From Lachnospiraceae bacterium (GTDB lineage Bacteria > Bacillota > Clostridia > Lachnospirales > Lachnospiraceae): a stretch of 52,605 bases of DNA. The notes under the pieces were generated by a model, which did no database searches, was not told where the DNA came from, and saw only the letters and a list, made by a program, of their open reading frames with translations. Location of the stretch: NCBI GenBank assembly GCA_021205305.1, contig JAJPXU010000019.1, positions 1-52,605 of the forward strand, in the 5' to 3' direction. The translations under genes and the position numbers were made by a program. Each line of letters begins with the position of its first letter. Positions within the stretch are counted from its first letter, which is position 1. Shown here piece after piece: positions 5,322 through 27,518 of this stretch.

Positions 5322-6698
5322 ATGAAACTTACAGATAAAGCAAAGACAGCGCTCACAGAAGCGGTGGTGAAGCAGGGCCTTGGGTATCTGGAAAAGGATC
5401 CGGAAACGAACATCCCGAAGCTGATGGCGCTGGTCGATAAGTACACACCGAAGGACTGGTTTGCGGGACAGAGAACCGCGATCCGGAATGCGATCCAGGA
5501 TAAGGACAATAACTGGTATCAGCTGATCATGCGTCTGTATCAACTGGATCCGGGTGTCCGCAAGACGTTCTTTGAGAATTTTATTATCAATGCAAGCCTG
5601 AACGGCGGGAAGCTGCAGGAGGAAAATGCAAAAGAGAACAACTGCAATTCCCCGTGGGCGATCCTGCTTGACCCGACGAGTGCCTGCAACCTGCACTGCA
5701 CCGGCTGCTGGGCAGCGGAGTACGGACATCAGCTGAACCTGACGCTGGAGGAGATTGATTCCATCATCCGCCAGGGGAAGGAAATCGGTGTCTATATGTA
5801 CATTTACACGGGCGGTGAGCCGACCGTGAGGAAGAAGGACATCATTAAGCTATGCGAGATGCATCCGGACTGCGAATTCCTGGCATTTACGAACGGAACT
5901 CTTTTTGACGAGGAATTCTGTGATGAGATCCTGCGGGTAAAGAATTTCGTCCCGGCATTCAGCCTGGAAGGCTCTGAGGAAGCGAATGATGGCCGCCGCG
6001 GCCAGGGTATTTACCAGAAGGTGATGCATTCCATGAAGCTTCTGAAAGACCGCGGACTTCCGTTTGGCATTTCCACCTGCTATACTTCCGCGAATGTGGA
6101 CAGTGTGAGCAGTGAGGAGTATTTTGACAAGCTGGTGGACTGCGGCGCGATGTTTGCCTGGTTCTTCCATTATATGCCGGTCGGAAATGACGCGTCAGCG
6201 GATCTTCTCCCGACACCGGAGCAGCGTAAGAAGATGTACAGCAGTATCCGCGAATTCCGGAATACGAAAGCACTCTTTACACTGGATTTCCAGAATGACG
6301 CGGAGTTTGTGCATGGCTGCATCGCCGGAGGACGGTATTACCTGCATATCAATGCAAAAGGGGATATCGAGCCGTGCGTGTTTATCCATTACTCGAACTG
6401 CAACATCCGGGAAACGACCCTGAAGGACGCCCTGAAGAGCCCGCTGTTCCAGGCATATCATGATAACCAGCCATTCAACGACAACATGATGCGCCCGTGC
6501 CCGATGCTCGAAAATCCGGAACGCCTGCGCAAAATGGTGAAAGAGACCGGGGCAGTCAGCACGGATTACCAGAGCCCGGAGAGCGTGGATGACCTGTGCG
6601 ATAAGACAACGCCTTACGCAGAGAACTGGAAAGCGACTGCGGATGAAATCTGGGAGGCAAACCCGAAGAGCAAAGAAGTAAAGGTAAGAAAAAGGTAA
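5322..6698 (+). CDS. Radical SAM protein
   Basis: A 458-residue enzyme with the radical SAM cluster motif C-x3-C-x2-C in SACNLHCTGCWAAEYG (cysteines near 122, 126 and 129). An all-helical N-terminal region of about 110 residues precedes it. After the barrel there is a further cysteine-containing segment (HGCIAGGRYYLHINAKGDIE, then PCVFIHYSNC and RPCPMLE), as in SPASM-like auxiliary cluster regions. The protein should generate a 5'-deoxyadenosyl radical; its substrate is unknown. GAGGAGTGAAGAG lies just upstream of the ATG. It is followed by two ABC exporter genes on the same strand, so a role in making or modifying something that is exported is possible, but no precursor peptide gene was found nearby. 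Confidence 0.85.
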   Translation: MKLTDKAKTALTEAVVKQGLGYLEKDPETNIPKLMALVDKYTPKDWFAGQRTAIRNAIQDKDNNWYQLIMRLYQLDPGVRKTFFENFIINASLNGGKLQEENAKENNCNSPWAILLDPTSACNLHCTGCWAAEYGHQLNLTLEEIDSIIRQGKEIGVYMYIYTGGEPTVRKKDIIKLCEMHPDCEFLAFTNGTLFDEEFCDEILRVKNFVPAFSLEGSEEANDGRRGQGIYQKVMHSMKLLKDRGLPFGISTCYTSANVDSVSSEEYFDKLVDCGAMFAWFFHYMPVGNDASADLLPTPEQRKKMYSSIREFRNTKALFTLDFQNDAEFVHGCIAGGRYYLHINAKGDIEPCVFIHYSNCNIRETTLKDALKSPLFQAYHDNQPFNDNMMRPCPMLENPERLRKMVKETGAVSTDYQSPESVDDLCDKTTPYAENWKATADEIWEANPKSKEVKVRKR

Positions 6699-20838: not shown

Positions 20839-20943
20839 TTTACCATTATTTGGGTTCGTACGGGCATATTATTTTACATTCCCTTTAAACTCATTACTTT
20901 GATTTTACTCATACTTTACATTTGGCGGATTATGTATTTTACA
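20839..20943 (+). promoter_or_regulatory. Pho box-like tandem TTTAC repeats upstream of pstS
   Basis: TTTAC-type hexamers occur at 20873 (TTTACA), 20884 (TTTAAA), 20893 (ATTACT), 20904 (TTTACT) and 20915 (TTTACA), spaced 11, 9, 11 and 11 bases. Further copies lie at 20839 (TTTACC) and 20938 (TTTACA). Direct TT-A-ACA repeats with one-turn spacing are how Gram-positive PhoP-type regulators bind DNA. The two-component pair at 25400-27518 is the likely regulator. The rest of this intergenic gap shows only the terminator at 20764 and a small GTGCGCC hairpin after it. Confidence 0.65.
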
Positions 20944-21055
20944 TAGCCGCACTAGAATAGTCATCGTAATGAGGCACCGGAAAACGACTACAGCGAAAAA
21001 ACGGGTAAGTCCTCTGCAAAATAATTTGTTCTATTATAAAAGGAGACGAATGATT

Positions 21056-21925
21056 ATGAAGAGAAAAGCAATCGCAGCAGTGATCGCAGCAATGATGGTA
21101 GCAAGCCTTGGAACAACCGCAATGGCGGATGCGACCGGCGATATTGTAGTATGCTCCAGAGAAGATGGCTCAGGCACACGCGGCGCGTTCATTGAGCTGG
21201 TTGGCGTAGAGCAGAAAGATGAGGATGGCAACAAAGTAGATATGACGACAGAGGCAGCTGAGATTACCAACAGCACAGCGGCTATGATCACAAAGGTGGC
21301 TGGTGATGAGAATGCAATCGGTTACATCTCTCTGGGGTCTCTGGATGAGAGCGTGACAGCAGTAGCGATTGACGGAGTAGAGGCTTCCGTAGAGAATGTG
21401 GAATCCGGCGACTATACGGTTGTACGTCCGTTCAACATCCTGACAATGGAAGAAGTCAGCGAAGAAGCACAGGATTTCATTGATTTCATTCTGAGTGAAG
21501 AAGGCCAGGCGGTTATCTCTGAGAATGGTTACATTGCCCTTTCTGACGCAGAACCGTTTGCAGGCGGCAGCGTATCCGGAAAGATTGTAGTTGGCGGTTC
21601 TTCTTCTGTGACTCCGGTGATGGAGAAGCTCGCTGAGGCTTATGCAGAGATCAATGCGGATCTGGAGATCGAGGTCATGCAGAGCGATTCTACAACAGGC
21701 GTAACATCCACAATTGATGGCAACTATGACATCGGAATGGCTTCCCGTGAACTGAAAGAAGAGGAAGAAGAGGAAGGTATTTCTGCTACCATGATCGCGC
21801 AGGACGGTATTGCAGTTATCGTAAATAACGAGAGCGGTATCACAGAGCTGACCACAGAGCAGGTAATGCAGATTTACACCGGCGAAATCACAACCTGGGA
21901 AGAGGTTACAGAGGCAGCTGAGTAA
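21056..21925 (+). CDS. pstS: Phosphate-binding protein PstS, circularly permuted
   Basis: 289 residues. A cleavable signal peptide (MKRKAIAAVIAAMMVASLGT, then TAMA) is followed at once by DATGDIVVCSREDGSGTRGA, which in ordinary PstS starts the second half. This half runs to EEGQAVISENGYIAL, normally the C-terminus. Only then comes GKIVVGGSSSVTPVMEKLAE, normally the mature N-terminus, running to IYTGEITTWEEV, normally the middle of the protein. Both phosphate loops (SSSVTP and GSGTR) are present once each. There is no lipobox cysteine. ATG 21056 is preferred over 21050 because AGGAGA ends 9 bases upstream. It is first in the pst operon, behind a Pho box. Phosphate binding is inferred from family and context. 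Confidence 0.9.
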   Translation: MKRKAIAAVIAAMMVASLGTTAMADATGDIVVCSREDGSGTRGAFIELVGVEQKDEDGNKVDMTTEAAEITNSTAAMITKVAGDENAIGYISLGSLDESVTAVAIDGVEASVENVESGDYTVVRPFNILTMEEVSEEAQDFIDFILSEEGQAVISENGYIALSDAEPFAGGSVSGKIVVGGSSSVTPVMEKLAEAYAEINADLEIEVMQSDSTTGVTSTIDGNYDIGMASRELKEEEEEEGISATMIAQDGIAVIVNNESGITELTTEQVMQIYTGEITTWEEVTEAAE

Positions 21926-22056: not shown

Positions 22057-22117
22057 GTGGGAACCCTGGTTATGGCTTATATGTTTTATCACATTGGTTT
22101 GTTACGAAGGAGAGAAT

Positions 22118-22975
22118 ATGACACAGAAGTTTTCTGAGCGAATCATGCGGATTATATTTTTAATTGCGGCCTGCATGTCGATACTGGCGGTTGCCCTGAT
22201 CTGCGTTTTCCTTTTCGCGAATGGGATTCCGACCATGGTAAAAATTGGCATTCCGGAATTCCTGCTCGGGACAACCTGGAAACCATCGAATGATATCTAT
22301 GGAATTTTGCCGTTTATTTTGGGCAGCATTTATGTTACTGCCGGTTCTATTGTAATCGGTGTGCCGATCGCGATGCTGACCGCAATTTTTCTGGCATTTT
22401 ACTGCCCCAAACGGATTTACACACCGCTGAAGTCAATGATCAATCTGCTGTCGGGAATTCCTTCCGTTGTATACGGCTTTTTCGGTATGGTCTGGATTGT
22501 TCCGACCATGAAGTCGATTATCGGCAGCTCCGGAAGCACAATGCTGACCGCATGTATTCTGCTTGGCATTATGATTCTTCCGACAGTCATTGGCGTGATG
22601 GAGCCTGCGCTTCGGAGCGTCCCGGAGAGCTACTATGAGGGTTCCCTCGCGCTTGGAGCGACACATGAGAGAAGTGTATTCTGTATTATACTTCCGGCAG
22701 CAAAGTCTGGTGTGGTAGCAGGAATTGTACTTGGAATCGGCCGTTCCATTGGGGAAACGATGGCAGTTATCATGGTTGCGGGCAACCAGACCTGGATGCC
22801 CAAAGGGCTGTTAAAGGGCGTGCGTACAATGACAGCAAACATTGTAATAGAAATGGGCTACGCGTCAGGCTTGCACAGGCAGGCGCTGATTGCTACGGGC
22901 GTGGTGCTCTTCGTGTTCATTTTGATTATCAATCTGAGCGTTTCACTCTTGAAGAGGAGGTCTGAGCATGAATAA
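22118..22975 (+). CDS. pstC: Phosphate ABC transporter permease PstC
   Basis: 285 residues with six membrane segments. The cytosolic EAA-like loop contains EPALRSVPESYYEGSLALGA, the coupling helix that contacts PstB. The segment LLSGIPSVVYGFFGM is characteristic of Pst permeases. It forms the membrane channel with PstA. ATG 22118 follows AAGGAG by 5 bases. The stop codon overlaps the start of pstA (ATGAATAA), so translation is coupled. Confidence 0.94.
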   Translation: MTQKFSERIMRIIFLIAACMSILAVALICVFLFANGIPTMVKIGIPEFLLGTTWKPSNDIYGILPFILGSIYVTAGSIVIGVPIAMLTAIFLAFYCPKRIYTPLKSMINLLSGIPSVVYGFFGMVWIVPTMKSIIGSSGSTMLTACILLGIMILPTVIGVMEPALRSVPESYYEGSLALGATHERSVFCIILPAAKSGVVAGIVLGIGRSIGETMAVIMVAGNQTWMPKGLLKGVRTMTANIVIEMGYASGLHRQALIATGVVLFVFILIINLSVSLLKRRSEHE

Positions 22976-23816
22976 AACGATTGTCTATTTTAAACATCAT
23001 CCATTCTCTGCCCTGGTGAAATGCCTGGTATGGCTGGCGGCAATCATTACAGCAGTGGTATTGGTATTTATCGTTGGTTTTATTCTGGTTAAGGGTGTGC
23101 CAAACCTGAAACCGAGCCTTTTTGCATTAAAGTATACTTCCGATAATGTTTCGCTGATGCCGGCTCTGATCAATACTCTGATAATAACGGCCCTGGCTCT
23201 GGTAATTGCGGTTCCGGTCGGTATTTTTGCGGCGATCTTTCTGGTGGAATATGCGAAAAAAGGAAGTAAGCTGGTAAGCCTGGTGCGCATCACAGCAGAA
23301 ACGCTTTCCGGCATTCCGTCTATCGTGTTCGGTCTGTTTGGCCTTTTGTTTTTTACAACAACATTAGGCTGGGGGTTTTCTCTGATGTCTGGCGCATTCA
23401 CGCTTGTAATCATGATTCTGCCGCTGATTATGCGTACGACGGAGGAAGCGCTGCTTGCTGTTCCGGATGCTTATCGGGAGGCTTCCTTTGGCGTGGGTGC
23501 CGGTAAGCTGCGCACAATTTTCCGGGTAGTACTTCCGTCTGCTATTCCTGGAATCCTGTCCGGTGTTGTACTTGCTACCGGACGAATTGTCGGTGAGACA
23601 GCGGCATTGCTCTATACAGCGAGTACGGTCGCGCAGGTGCCAAGCACACTCTTCGGCAGTGGGCGTACCCTGGCGGTCCATATGTATGTGCTGTCGAATG
23701 AGGGGCTTCATATGGGTGAGGCTTACGCGACAGCCGTTGTCCTGATTGTGCTGGTTTTGATTCTCAATGGATTGTCATCCCTGTTTGCGGGTATGCTGAT
23801 GAAAGGGCAAAAGTAA
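22968..23816 (+). CDS. pstA: Phosphate ABC transporter permease PstA
   Basis: 282 residues with six membrane segments. It has the TLSGIPSIVFGLFGL segment and the coupling loop TTEEALLAVPDAYREASFGV. It pairs with PstC. AGGAGG lies 9 bases upstream of the ATG, inside pstC. A gap of 123 bases separates it from pstB. Confidence 0.94.
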   Translation: MNKTIVYFKHHPFSALVKCLVWLAAIITAVVLVFIVGFILVKGVPNLKPSLFALKYTSDNVSLMPALINTLIITALALVIAVPVGIFAAIFLVEYAKKGSKLVSLVRITAETLSGIPSIVFGLFGLLFFTTTLGWGFSLMSGAFTLVIMILPLIMRTTEEALLAVPDAYREASFGVGAGKLRTIFRVVLPSAIPGILSGVVLATGRIVGETAALLYTASTVAQVPSTLFGSGRTLAVHMYVLSNEGLHMGEAYATAVVLIVLVLILNGLSSLFAGMLMKGQK

Positions 23817-23939: not shown

Positions 23940-24689
23940 ATGGGAAAGATAGACATTAAAAACACGGATTTATACTATGGGGATTTCCACGCACTCAAGA
24001 ATATCAATCTTGAAATCCCGGCAAATAAGATTACCGCTTTTATCGGGCCGAGCGGCTGTGGAAAATCGACGCTTTTAAAATCCTTAAACCGCATGAATGA
24101 TCTCGTAGAGGGCTGCAAAATTACGGGAGAGATCACGCTGGACGGGGAAGATATTTACGGAGATATGGATGTCAATCAGCTGAGAAAGCGCGTCGGAATG
24201 GTATTTCAGAAAGCAAATCCGTTTCCGATGAGTATATATGATAATGTGGCGTATGGGCCGAGGACACACGGGATACGCAGCAAGGCGAAGCTGGATGAAA
24301 TTGTGGAAAAAGCGCTGCGGGACGCTGCGATCTGGGATGAGGTCAAGGATCGTCTGAAAAAGAGCGCACTGGGCATGTCCGGCGGGCAGCAGCAGCGGCT
24401 TTGCATTGCGAGGGCACTGGCGGTAGAACCGGAGGTATTGCTGATGGACGAGTCAACCTCTGCTCTGGATCCGATTTCAACATCCAGAATTGAGGACCTG
24501 GTGATTGAACTGAAGGAGAAATATACCATTGCGATGGTAACGCATAATATGCAGCAGGCAGCACGTATTTCAGACAAAACAGCGTTTTTCCTTCTCGGTG
24601 AAATGATTGAGTTTGACGATACCACGACGCTGTTCTCCGTTCCGAAGAACAAAAAAACAGAAGAATATATTACGGGGAGGTTTGGCTGA
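23940..24689 (+). CDS. pstB: Phosphate ABC transporter ATPase PstB
   Basis: 249 residues, the usual PstB length. Walker A is GPSGCGKST (about 32-40), the signature is [15 protein letters not shown] and Walker B is [12 protein letters not shown]. The segment [20 protein letters not shown] is typical of PstB. It drives phosphate import through PstCA. It is 2 bases from phoU, so the two are one translational unit. Confidence 0.95.
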
Positions 24690-24691
24690 TT

Positions 24692-25378
24692 ATGAGAGAT
24701 CGATTTGTAGAAAAACTGGACCAGCTGCAAAAAGAGCTGCTTGAGATGGGAATGCTTTGCGAAGAGGCGATTATGAAGACCTACCGTCTGCTTGTTTCGA
24801 CAGAGAACCGTGAGGAGACGGCGGAGGAGATAGATCATCTGGAAAATGAGATTGACGGGAAGGAACAGGGGATAGAGAGTATCTGTCTGCAGCTTCTTTT
24901 GCGGCAGCAGCCGGTGGCGTCTGATCTGCGCCGGATCTCGGCCGCGATGAAGATGATCACGGATCTGGAGCGTATCGGCGATCAGGCGACGGATATCGCG
25001 GAGATTATGAAGACCGGCAGCATTGATGTGCCGGTAAAGGGTGTGGCAATCGCGCAGATGGCGGAGTTCACGGTCAGTATGGTAAATAAGAGTGTGGAGG
25101 CATACGTAAACCGTGATCTGGAGCTTTCACGGGAAGTGATTGATAGCGACGACCAGCTTGACGCTATGTTCCTGGATGTGAGAAAAACGCTGACAGATCC
25201 GAATATTAATGAAACATTTAATAATGACCAGATTCTGGATCTTCTGATGATTGCAAAATATTATGAACGAATCGGCGACCATGCGACAAACATTGGTGAA
25301 TGGGTAGAATTTTCACTGACCGGGGTACACAGGCAGGGGAAAAAGGTGTATAATGTGTTTGGTGCGTATGCGAAGTAA
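24692..25378 (+). CDS. phoU: Phosphate regulatory protein PhoU
   Basis: 228 residues, all helical, with the two PhoU three-helix repeats. Metal-binding E/D-x-x-x-D motifs appear as DLERIGDQATDIAE (first repeat) and YYERIGDHATNIGEWVEF (second repeat). PhoU damps Pst uptake and keeps the PhoR-type kinase in its non-signalling state when phosphate is plentiful. It ends 21 bases before the response regulator. Confidence 0.93.
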   Translation: MRDRFVEKLDQLQKELLEMGMLCEEAIMKTYRLLVSTENREETAEEIDHLENEIDGKEQGIESICLQLLLRQQPVASDLRRISAAMKMITDLERIGDQATDIAEIMKTGSIDVPVKGVAIAQMAEFTVSMVNKSVEAYVNRDLELSREVIDSDDQLDAMFLDVRKTLTDPNINETFNNDQILDLLMIAKYYERIGDHATNIGEWVEFSLTGVHRQGKKVYNVFGAYAK

Positions 25379-25399: not shown

Positions 25400-26080
25400 G
25401 TGGCGCTGATTTATATTGTGGAAGATGATGAGAATATTAAAGAGATTGAGATGTTTGCTCTTAAGAATACGGGGTATGAGGTGCAGGGGTTTGACTGTGC
25501 CTCTGCTTTTTATGCCAGGCTGAAGGAGCGGCTGCCGTCGCTGGTGCTGCTGGATGTTATGCTGCCGGATGAGGATGGGCTGGAGATTGTGAAGAAGCTG
25601 CGGTATTCGGCGCGGACGCGCCGGATTCCGATTATTCTGGTGACGGCGAAGACGACGGAGTTGGATAAGGTGAAGGGGCTGGATATTGGGGCGGATGATT
25701 ATATTACGAAGCCATTTGGTGTGATGGAACTGATTTCGCGGGTGAAGGCGCTGATGCGCCGCACACAGGATATGCAGGAGGAACGGCTGATCCGACTGGC
25801 TTCGATTTTTATGGATGATGAGAAGCGGGCGGTGTTTGTGGATGATGTGCCGGTGGAGCTGACGTTTAAGGAGTATGAGCTGCTGAAGCTGCTTCTTTTG
25901 AATGCGGGGATTGTGGTTTCGCGGGATATGATTCTGGATCGCGTGTGGGGGACGGATTTTGAGGGAGAGTCGAGGACACTGGATATGCATATAAAGACAC
26001 TGCGGCAGAAGCTGGGTACGGCCGGGACGATGATACGGACGGTGCGCAATGTCGGTTATATACTGAATGATGAAAAATGA
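25400..26080 (+). CDS. OmpR/PhoB-type response regulator
   Basis: 226 residues. The receiver domain has the acidic pair in IVEDDENI, the phosphorylated Asp in LVLLDVMLPDEDG and the Lys in ITKPFG. The C-terminal winged helix begins near RLASIFMDDEKRAVF and contains LTFKEYELLKLLLL and RTLDMHIKTLRQKLG. The start is GTG 25400 after GGGAGG. Its place behind phoU, with a Pho box at pstS, makes it the likely PhoP/PhoB regulator of the operon. Codon use here is richer in G-ending codons than in the flanking genes. Confidence 0.92.
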   Translation: MALIYIVEDDENIKEIEMFALKNTGYEVQGFDCASAFYARLKERLPSLVLLDVMLPDEDGLEIVKKLRYSARTRRIPIILVTAKTTELDKVKGLDIGADDYITKPFGVMELISRVKALMRRTQDMQEERLIRLASIFMDDEKRAVFVDDVPVELTFKEYELLKLLLLNAGIVVSRDMILDRVWGTDFEGESRTLDMHIKTLRQKLGTAGTMIRTVRNVGYILNDEK

Positions 26081-26195: not shown

Positions 26196-27518
26196 ATGAA
26201 AAAGAAAATCAATATCTGTCTGATTTCAACGGTTTTTGTGACGCTTGTGGCAACGCTTTTGATAGCGGTTGCCATTTTTCGTAATATGTATAAGGAACAG
26301 GTGCTTTCGGAAATGCGGACATACGCAGCCCTGATCAGCAGCCTTTCGACTTCGGCAGAGGAACTGGAAGCGCAGTATACGGAGGATGTGGCGGGACTTC
26401 GCGTCACACTGATTGATGAAAATGGGGAAGTGGAATACGACAGTGATGTGAGCGGTACGCTGGAGAATCACGCGGATCGGGAAGAAGTGAAAGAGGCGGA
26501 AGAGGAGGGAGAAGGATGGACGATCCGGTATTCCGATTCTCTGAACAGCGAGATGTATTATTACGCCGTGGAACTGGATGACGGCTCAATTTTGCGGATC
26601 AGCCGGGAGGAAGCGAGTATCTGGGGAATTTTCACGAATACGCTGAAAGGAATTTTCGGGGTAGGACTGATTATGCTTCTGGTATGTATGATTTTGTCAC
26701 GACGGATTACCGCAGGGATTGTAAATCCAATCGAGAAGATGGCTTCTAATATTGACAGTGCCGGTACGGAAGGAATTTATGAAGAACTGATTCCTTTTGT
26801 CACGACGATCCGCAAACAGCATGAGGATATCATGAAAAGCGCGAAGATGCGCCAGGAATTTACAGCGAATGTTTCGCATGAACTGAAAACTCCTCTGACT
26901 TCCATCTCAGGATATGCGGAATTGATTGAGACAGGGATTGCAGGCGAAAAAGAAATACAGCATTTTGCCCATGAGATTCATCGCAGCGCACAGAGGCTGC
27001 TGACGCTGATCAATGATATCATTAAATTATCGGAGCTTGACGCGGATAAGATGGACATTGCTACGGCAGATGTGGATCTTTACGCGGCAGCACAGGCGTG
27101 TGTGGAATCGATCAGCCTGAATGCGAAAAAGCAGGGAATCCATATACGCTGCGTTGGCCAGCCGATTATGATCAGGGGTGATAAAAATATGATTGATGAA
27201 CTGCTCTATAATCTCTGTGACAACGCGATCCGCTATAATCGGCCCGACGGCACGGTGACGGTGACCATTGGAGAGCGAGCCGGACGTGCAATGCTGTCTG
27301 TGAAGGATACTGGCATCGGGATTCCCAAGGAGAGCCAGGAACGCGTTTTTGAACGCTTTTACTGCGTGGATAAGAGCCGCTCCAAAAATACAGGCGGTAC
27401 CGGACTGGGGCTTGCGATCGTAAAGCATATTGTTGCGCAGCATCACGCGGAGATTGAGCTGGAGAGCAAGGTCGGAGTTGGAACGGATATTACCGTATTG
27501 TTTGATAAAGCCATATAA
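26196..27518 (+). CDS. PhoR-type sensor histidine kinase
   Basis: 440 residues. There are two membrane segments (about 9-28 and 148-168) with an external sensor domain of some 120 residues that contains an acidic EVKEAEEEGEG stretch. The HisKA domain has NVSHELKTPLTSISGYAELI, with the phosphorylated His. The HATPase domain has the N box LLYNLCDNAIRYN, then DTGIGIP and GTGLGLAIVKHIV. It should phosphorylate the response regulator upstream, from which it is separated by 115 bases holding a palindromic element. GGGGTGAAATGGC precedes the ATG. Confidence 0.92.
   Translation: MKKKINICLISTVFVTLVATLLIAVAIFRNMYKEQVLSEMRTYAALISSLSTSAEELEAQYTEDVAGLRVTLIDENGEVEYDSDVSGTLENHADREEVKEAEEEGEGWTIRYSDSLNSEMYYYAVELDDGSILRISREEASIWGIFTNTLKGIFGVGLIMLLVCMILSRRITAGIVNPIEKMASNIDSAGTEGIYEELIPFVTTIRKQHEDIMKSAKMRQEFTANVSHELKTPLTSISGYAELIETGIAGEKEIQHFAHEIHRSAQRLLTLINDIIKLSELDADKMDIATADVDLYAAAQACVESISLNAKKQGIHIRCVGQPIMIRGDKNMIDELLYNLCDNAIRYNRPDGTVTVTIGERAGRAMLSVKDTGIGIPKESQERVFERFYCVDKSRSKNTGGTGLGLAIVKHIVAQHHAEIELESKVGVGTDITVLFDKAI

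Follow-up and report, generated by a model that had tools for sequence, protein, structure and literature searches.

Half-swapped PstS in a Lachnospiraceae phosphate-import operon: a circularly permuted subfamily whose chain order changed more than once

The window analysed in this work is a stretch of 52,605 nucleotides from a Lachnospiraceae bacterium (GenBank assembly GCA_021205305.1, contig JAJPXU010000019.1), and its subject is a gene for the phosphate-binding protein PstS at 21056..21925 on the forward strand. PstS is a standard model binding protein. The open reading frame (ORF) runs from 21056 to 21925 without an internal stop and encodes 289 amino acids; an in-frame ATG is also present at 21050. 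The gene was identified from the ORF, its PF12849 match and an AlphaFold2 model with a mean pLDDT (predicted local distance difference test) of 90. PF12849 matched the protein with 116.5 bits (cut-off 27) in two stretches, of which the first, at 21131-21502, corresponded to profile positions 129-267 and the second, at 21560-21913, to positions 4-128. The C-half of PstS (VCSREDGSGTRGAF ..., forward strand, 21134..21553, limits from PF12849 and a C-half model) is placed first, while the N-half (KIVVGGSSSVTPVMEKL ... ITTWEEV, forward strand, 21560..21913) is placed last. Around ALSDAEPFAGGSV, at approximately 21536..21574 on the same strand, lies the linker from the old C-terminus to the old N-terminus. 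The chain starts with a putative signal peptide (21056..21130, forward strand, ending in ...GTTAMADA with a presumed cleavage site), which as read from the sequence has no lipobox cysteine.

The initial annotation had proposed that the two halves are swapped, that each is present once rather than fused with a second copy, and that the new termini lie at the mid-protein crossover, and all three proposals held. For a rotation control, 24 normal-order PstS proteins were trimmed to their two halves and scored against the window protein both in linear order and with the halves rotated. The best single-stretch score was higher after rotation in all 24, with medians of 158 bits rotated and 82 bits unrotated, and the median longest stretch was 255 of 263 residues compared with 130. 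Normal linear order was rejected, since the PF12849 halves are swapped and normal-order PstS aligned with the window protein as two swapped stretches. A fusion with a second PstS copy was likewise rejected, as PF12849 matched each half a single time and the protein has the length of a single PstS. The site of the break is the VGGxD crossover loop, where the normal-order proteins examined read like NWSEVGGxDxxIIVVSREDGSG. Against TIGR02136, a linear model, the protein scored 197.1 bits, below the curated cut-off of 206.6.

The source genome is a draft of 173 contigs, and an assembly or sequencing error joining two partial genes could in principle produce such an ORF. The same half order was found in all of the 80 loci fetched, cultured strains included; these were selected from 441 relatives as the 80 most similar to a permuted query, and for this reason 80 of 80 is not a frequency. 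Named records among them belong to Lachnospiraceae, Phascolarctobacterium, Acetivibrio and Eggerthellaceae. The permuted order also occurs in two plasmid records titled complete, a permuted PstS was found on a plasmid of Treponema saccharophilum, and a crystallised protein (PDB 4H1X) is collinear with the window protein. Independent assemblies and this structure rule out an artefact, to which we assign practically no probability; the search for the same order in relatives, which the initial annotation had suggested as a check, found that order.

Frequencies were estimated with a profile (A1) built from 51 permuted proteins. In the window's genus, 34 of 47 genomes had permuted matches, 33 as a single match and one (G815) split over two contigs; four of the others carried normal order only, one a fragment, and eight gave no match at E <= 1e-10. 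At the level of the order, 57 of 196 genomes were positive (best E 1.3e-54 or lower), or 58 when a divergent permuted protein below the E line is counted (L155 in G496). The phylum search at E <= 1e-45 returned 16 of 398 genomes, including G341 and G384, whose tandem proteins (L099 and L098) matched because the model fits their middle C-N part; after removal of these two the count is 14 of 398. At order level permuted proteins mostly gave one match of at least 184 bits, and in normal ones the halves matched separately, with 144 bits or less; two weakly matching permuted proteins, at about 102 bits, are exceptions (G496, and G507 contig C62). The two forms were rarely found in one genome (G471, G506, G012). 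G471 and G506 came from the overlap between the 57 A1-positive genomes and the 58, out of 146 searched, that match TIGR02136 at E <= 1e-40; G004, G007 and G026 combine the permuted form with a weaker normal-order PF12849 protein. In most genomes of the window's genus the permuted lineage takes the place of normal PstS. The earlier guess that it may be common in this bacterial group is borne out at both genus and order level. The window gene belongs as an ordinary member to a real, functional-looking and widespread permuted PstS subfamily. Two unusual members were noticed: L152 (G602 contig C58), in which a copper amine oxidase N-terminal domain (PF07833), followed by a Pro-rich spacer, is fused ahead of the permuted PstS, and the protein on G507 contig C62 (L163), of only 227 residues and lacking the RxxGSGT region, which from its sequence is perhaps decaying.

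The gene is followed, all on the forward strand, by pstC (22094..22975; TIGR02138, 275.9 bits, cut-off 196), pstA (22968..23816; TIGR00974, 269.8 bits, cut-off 193), pstB (23940..24689; TIGR00972, 417 bits, cut-off 343) and phoU (24692..25378; TIGR02135, 188.2 bits, cut-off 130), each above its NCBIfam cut-off and together a pstCAB-phoU operon. Further downstream on that strand lie a PhoB-like response regulator with Response_reg and Trans_reg_C Pfam domains (25400..26080; best NCBIfam model PhoB, 221.6 bits, below its cut-off of 296) and a PnpS/PhoR-like histidine kinase (26196..27518; best model PnpS, 259.4 bits, below its cut-off of 400). Upstream of pstS, at 20873..20920 of the forward strand, TTTACA direct repeats resemble Pho boxes and may serve as such. 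They comprise one-mismatch matches at 20873-20889 and 20904-20920 to the consensus quoted in PMC4913102, which was used for the scan. Further one-mismatch matches lie at 6276 and 29147, and the window holds 13 matches with at most two mismatches where 3.4 are expected. In the 80 fetched loci (L005-L084), permuted pstS is followed within the pst set by pstC in 77 cases, and by a second PstS and then pstC in three. The start of pstC was within 400 nucleotides in 75 of the 80 and farther away in L035, L042, L045, L051 and L067.

Residues at the phosphate site were compared by aligning the window protein to 4gd5, a structure titled as phosphate-bound. R35, S39, G40, S182 and S230 are kept in all 56 permuted rows and T41 in 55; Ser, Thr and Gly contacts are also listed for another PstS in PMC12421899. 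At D211 (codon 21686-21688) the window protein has Asp beside a phosphate-site Ser. This position is Asp in 40 of the 56 permuted rows; the other 16, among them 4H1X and L154, have Gly, as do all 24 normal rows. The source genome (G000) also encodes a second permuted PstS-like protein, L102, on contig C95, flanked by genes for a polyphosphate kinase and a BPD_transp_1 permease and not beside pstCAB; a lower-scoring permuted class like it is seen in 7 of the 47 genus genomes, as read from the match table without a tree. An Asp in 40 of 56 permuted and in none of 24 normal rows could shift specificity, and together with the setting of the second copy it would suit a protein that binds a ligand other than phosphate or serves sensing only. 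Against this stand the conserved contact motifs, the scores of the window's PstC, PstA, PstB and PhoU above curated cut-offs, and the pneumococcal Pst2 system. According to PMC4913102, loss of both pst operons in unencapsulated S. pneumoniae approximately halved phosphate uptake, while single losses did not do so, which implicates Pst2, the system of 4H1X, in uptake along with Pst1. We therefore consider another ligand or a pure sensing role quite unlikely. Judged by its sequence, the window PstS probably captures phosphate in the ordinary way; it would most likely close on phosphate and pass it to PstC/PstA.

The missing lipobox is not peculiar to the window, as 24 of 128 permuted ORFs, the window's included, lack it, in comparison with none of 30 normal ones. 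Lachnospiraceae and Blautia kin without a lipobox include, among others, L005-L016 and the Blautia loci L030, L068 and L076. Moving the tethered end of the chain to the hinge may have made the membrane anchor dispensable. The window protein would presumably be exported by way of its signal peptide.

For the phylogeny, N-halves and C-halves were aligned separately and then set in one order. Identical ORFs were counted once, which reduced 171 loci to 162 ORFs; from L085 on, 11 loci have no entry of their own as they repeat the ORF of another locus. With an identity filter of 72%, 83 of 165 rows were kept. A careful tree was built without L175 and L184 and with rows L155, L163 and L100 dropped. 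An 82-row tree, with seven rows added, left out the permuted L100, L155, L163 and L082 and the normal L122, L123, L124 and L126. In the latter, 55 permuted proteins formed one clade (support 98/96), including the window protein, the copy on C95, 4H1X, and members from Bacillota and Actinomycetota; the position of 4H1X inside the clade is weakly supported (81/89). The C-half tree by itself recovered the clade (98, starred), and for the N-half the tree in which the clade is held together is better by 26 log-likelihood (lnL) units. The window PstS shares common descent with the 4H1X-like permuted subfamily.

One permuted protein, L154 (G465), encoded ahead of pstCAB-phoU, did not join this clade in the 82-row tree. 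Its two halves share 61.6% and 64.2% identity with the normal-order L164 (G486), and the normal-order L184 (G556) is about as close (66-67%). These three and L175 form a group (99/98) outside the permuted clade, in which the normal-order L175 splits first and L154 splits before L164 and L184 (100/85). A single clade of all 56 permuted rows, which would mean one change of order, was rejected (lnL lower by 130, p-AU 0.000282 in the approximately unbiased (AU) test), which means that there have been two or more changes of order, each in the crossover loop. We hold with high confidence that the window gene encodes a circularly permuted PstS of a PstCAB importer, descended from an old and shared permutation, and that a further change of order took place in the lineage that holds G465 and the normal-order sisters of L154.

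Several results weigh against this account or parts of it. The N-half tree by itself did not contain the 55-row clade, and eight long or divergent rows are absent from the 82-row tree. In the careful tree, which lacks L175 and L184, L154 and L164 fell inside a permuted clade of 54 rows (99/99). AU tests rejected neither placement of the L154 group: inside, with 11 permuted rows, p was 0.228 without L175 and 0.519 with it, and outside, on the rows of the careful tree, p was 0.398. L154 is a single instance from a draft genome. Finally, the units of the tandem PstS proteins mentioned above did not branch beside the permuted clade.

Poor resolution of the N-half tree, together with the adjacent separate pstS genes seen in one examined genome (L138), could suggest that the permuted gene joins halves of two distinct PstS paralogues. 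Both half trees are nevertheless compatible with the same 55-row clade, which points to a single gene that was rearranged rather than to unlike halves joined together. For L154, too, each half groups with L164 and L184, its sisters in normal order; a fusion of paralogues appears very improbable. The placement of the L154 group bears on a different alternative, in which a single old permutation occurred and L164, L184 and L175 later went back to normal order. If L154 and L164 belong inside the permuted clade, as in the trees without L175 and L184 and as the AU tests with those rows added permit, a return to normal order would follow, and if the group lies outside, as in the 82-row tree, a second permutation. 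With the whole group inside, L175 splitting first and being normal, more changes are needed; a second permutation requires fewer, as both L175 and the pair L164 and L184 have normal order. A return to normal order is hence possible but the less probable course, and a second permutation in the G465 lineage is the likelier one. What stands out most about the permuted subfamily is that its order changed repeatedly. We lean towards seeing the PstS crossover loop as a natural hot spot for permutation, permuted at least twice: one event gave a lineage spread over several phyla, and a more recent one the G465 lineage, whose sisters in normal order show about 63% identity. An end at the hinge may also free the protein from its membrane anchor.

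As to the route, the initial annotation had suggested tandem duplication of pstS followed by loss of the outer halves. Single-ORF tandems with N-C-N-C order do exist in one genus (L098 in G384 and L099 in G341, 531 and 544 residues), with pstC as the next gene and in G341 also pstA, pstB and phoU (L204). Tandem and adjacent pstS genes are the intermediates that a permutation by duplication and loss would be expected to pass through. Direct descent of the permuted clade from these tandems is unsupported, as their units branch elsewhere, and the suggested route stands as the most probable one: tandem duplication, fusion, then loss of the outer halves. The part of the chain after the first lobe crossing now stands first, a short linker connects the old termini, and the new ones lie in the crossover loop. 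The chain would still fold as the usual two-lobed binding protein with its phosphate-contact motifs, as the AlphaFold2 model predicts. The old permutation is shared with pneumococcal PstS2, and the later change at the same loop in the G465 lineage would most simply be a second permutation.

In the open-access literature searched, we found no description of a circularly permuted PstS or of its subfamily, though one may still exist, and no paper naming 4H1X. Of the 51 permuted proteins, 2 reached a TIGR02136 E-value of 5e-61, which we equated with the cut-off; the leader part was absent from 50 of the 51 sequences, and this could lower the score somewhat. In two annotated plasmid records, the permuted PstS next to annotated pstCAB is named 'substrate-binding domain-containing protein'. 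As a linear model under-scores the permuted form and naming is generic, surveys by gene name may miss permuted PstS. A large natural permuted lineage, with close permuted and normal sisters, makes the effects of chain order on folding, hinge motion and docking to the importer testable without engineering.

Among known systems, the closest is PstS2 of Streptococcus pneumoniae (SP_2084, PDB 4H1X). It has the same permuted order, falls in the same clade and is collinear with the window PstS over the full mature chain at 44% identity, differing at window position 211, where it has Gly and the window protein Asp. The permuted topology, which occurs in several phyla, was already solved in 2012; the title of 4H1X, in the truncated form displayed, does not mention permutation. 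Normal-order PstS (TIGR02136; PDB 4gd5, 4q8r, 1twy) has homologous halves and shares its motifs and operon partners, while the window protein differs in its swapped halves, its termini in the crossover loop and a score below the TIGR02136 cut-off. OpuAC of Bacillus subtilis, whose ligand is betaine, is only 10-13% identical to the window PstS. PMC4990184 describes TpMglB-2 (Tp0684) as a natural circular permutation of a two-lobed sugar-binding protein that retains ligand binding and shape change; it has a Type I fold, proposed as 'Type Ic', binds glucose, and differs in its break point and in a poor sequence match in the moved part. Assignment of the window PstS to this Type Ic or Type I (cluster B) sugar-binding fold was rejected, since both halves match PF12849 and the best matches are PstS structures. 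By analogy, TpMglB-2 offers a precedent for function kept in vitro after permutation of a two-lobed binding protein.
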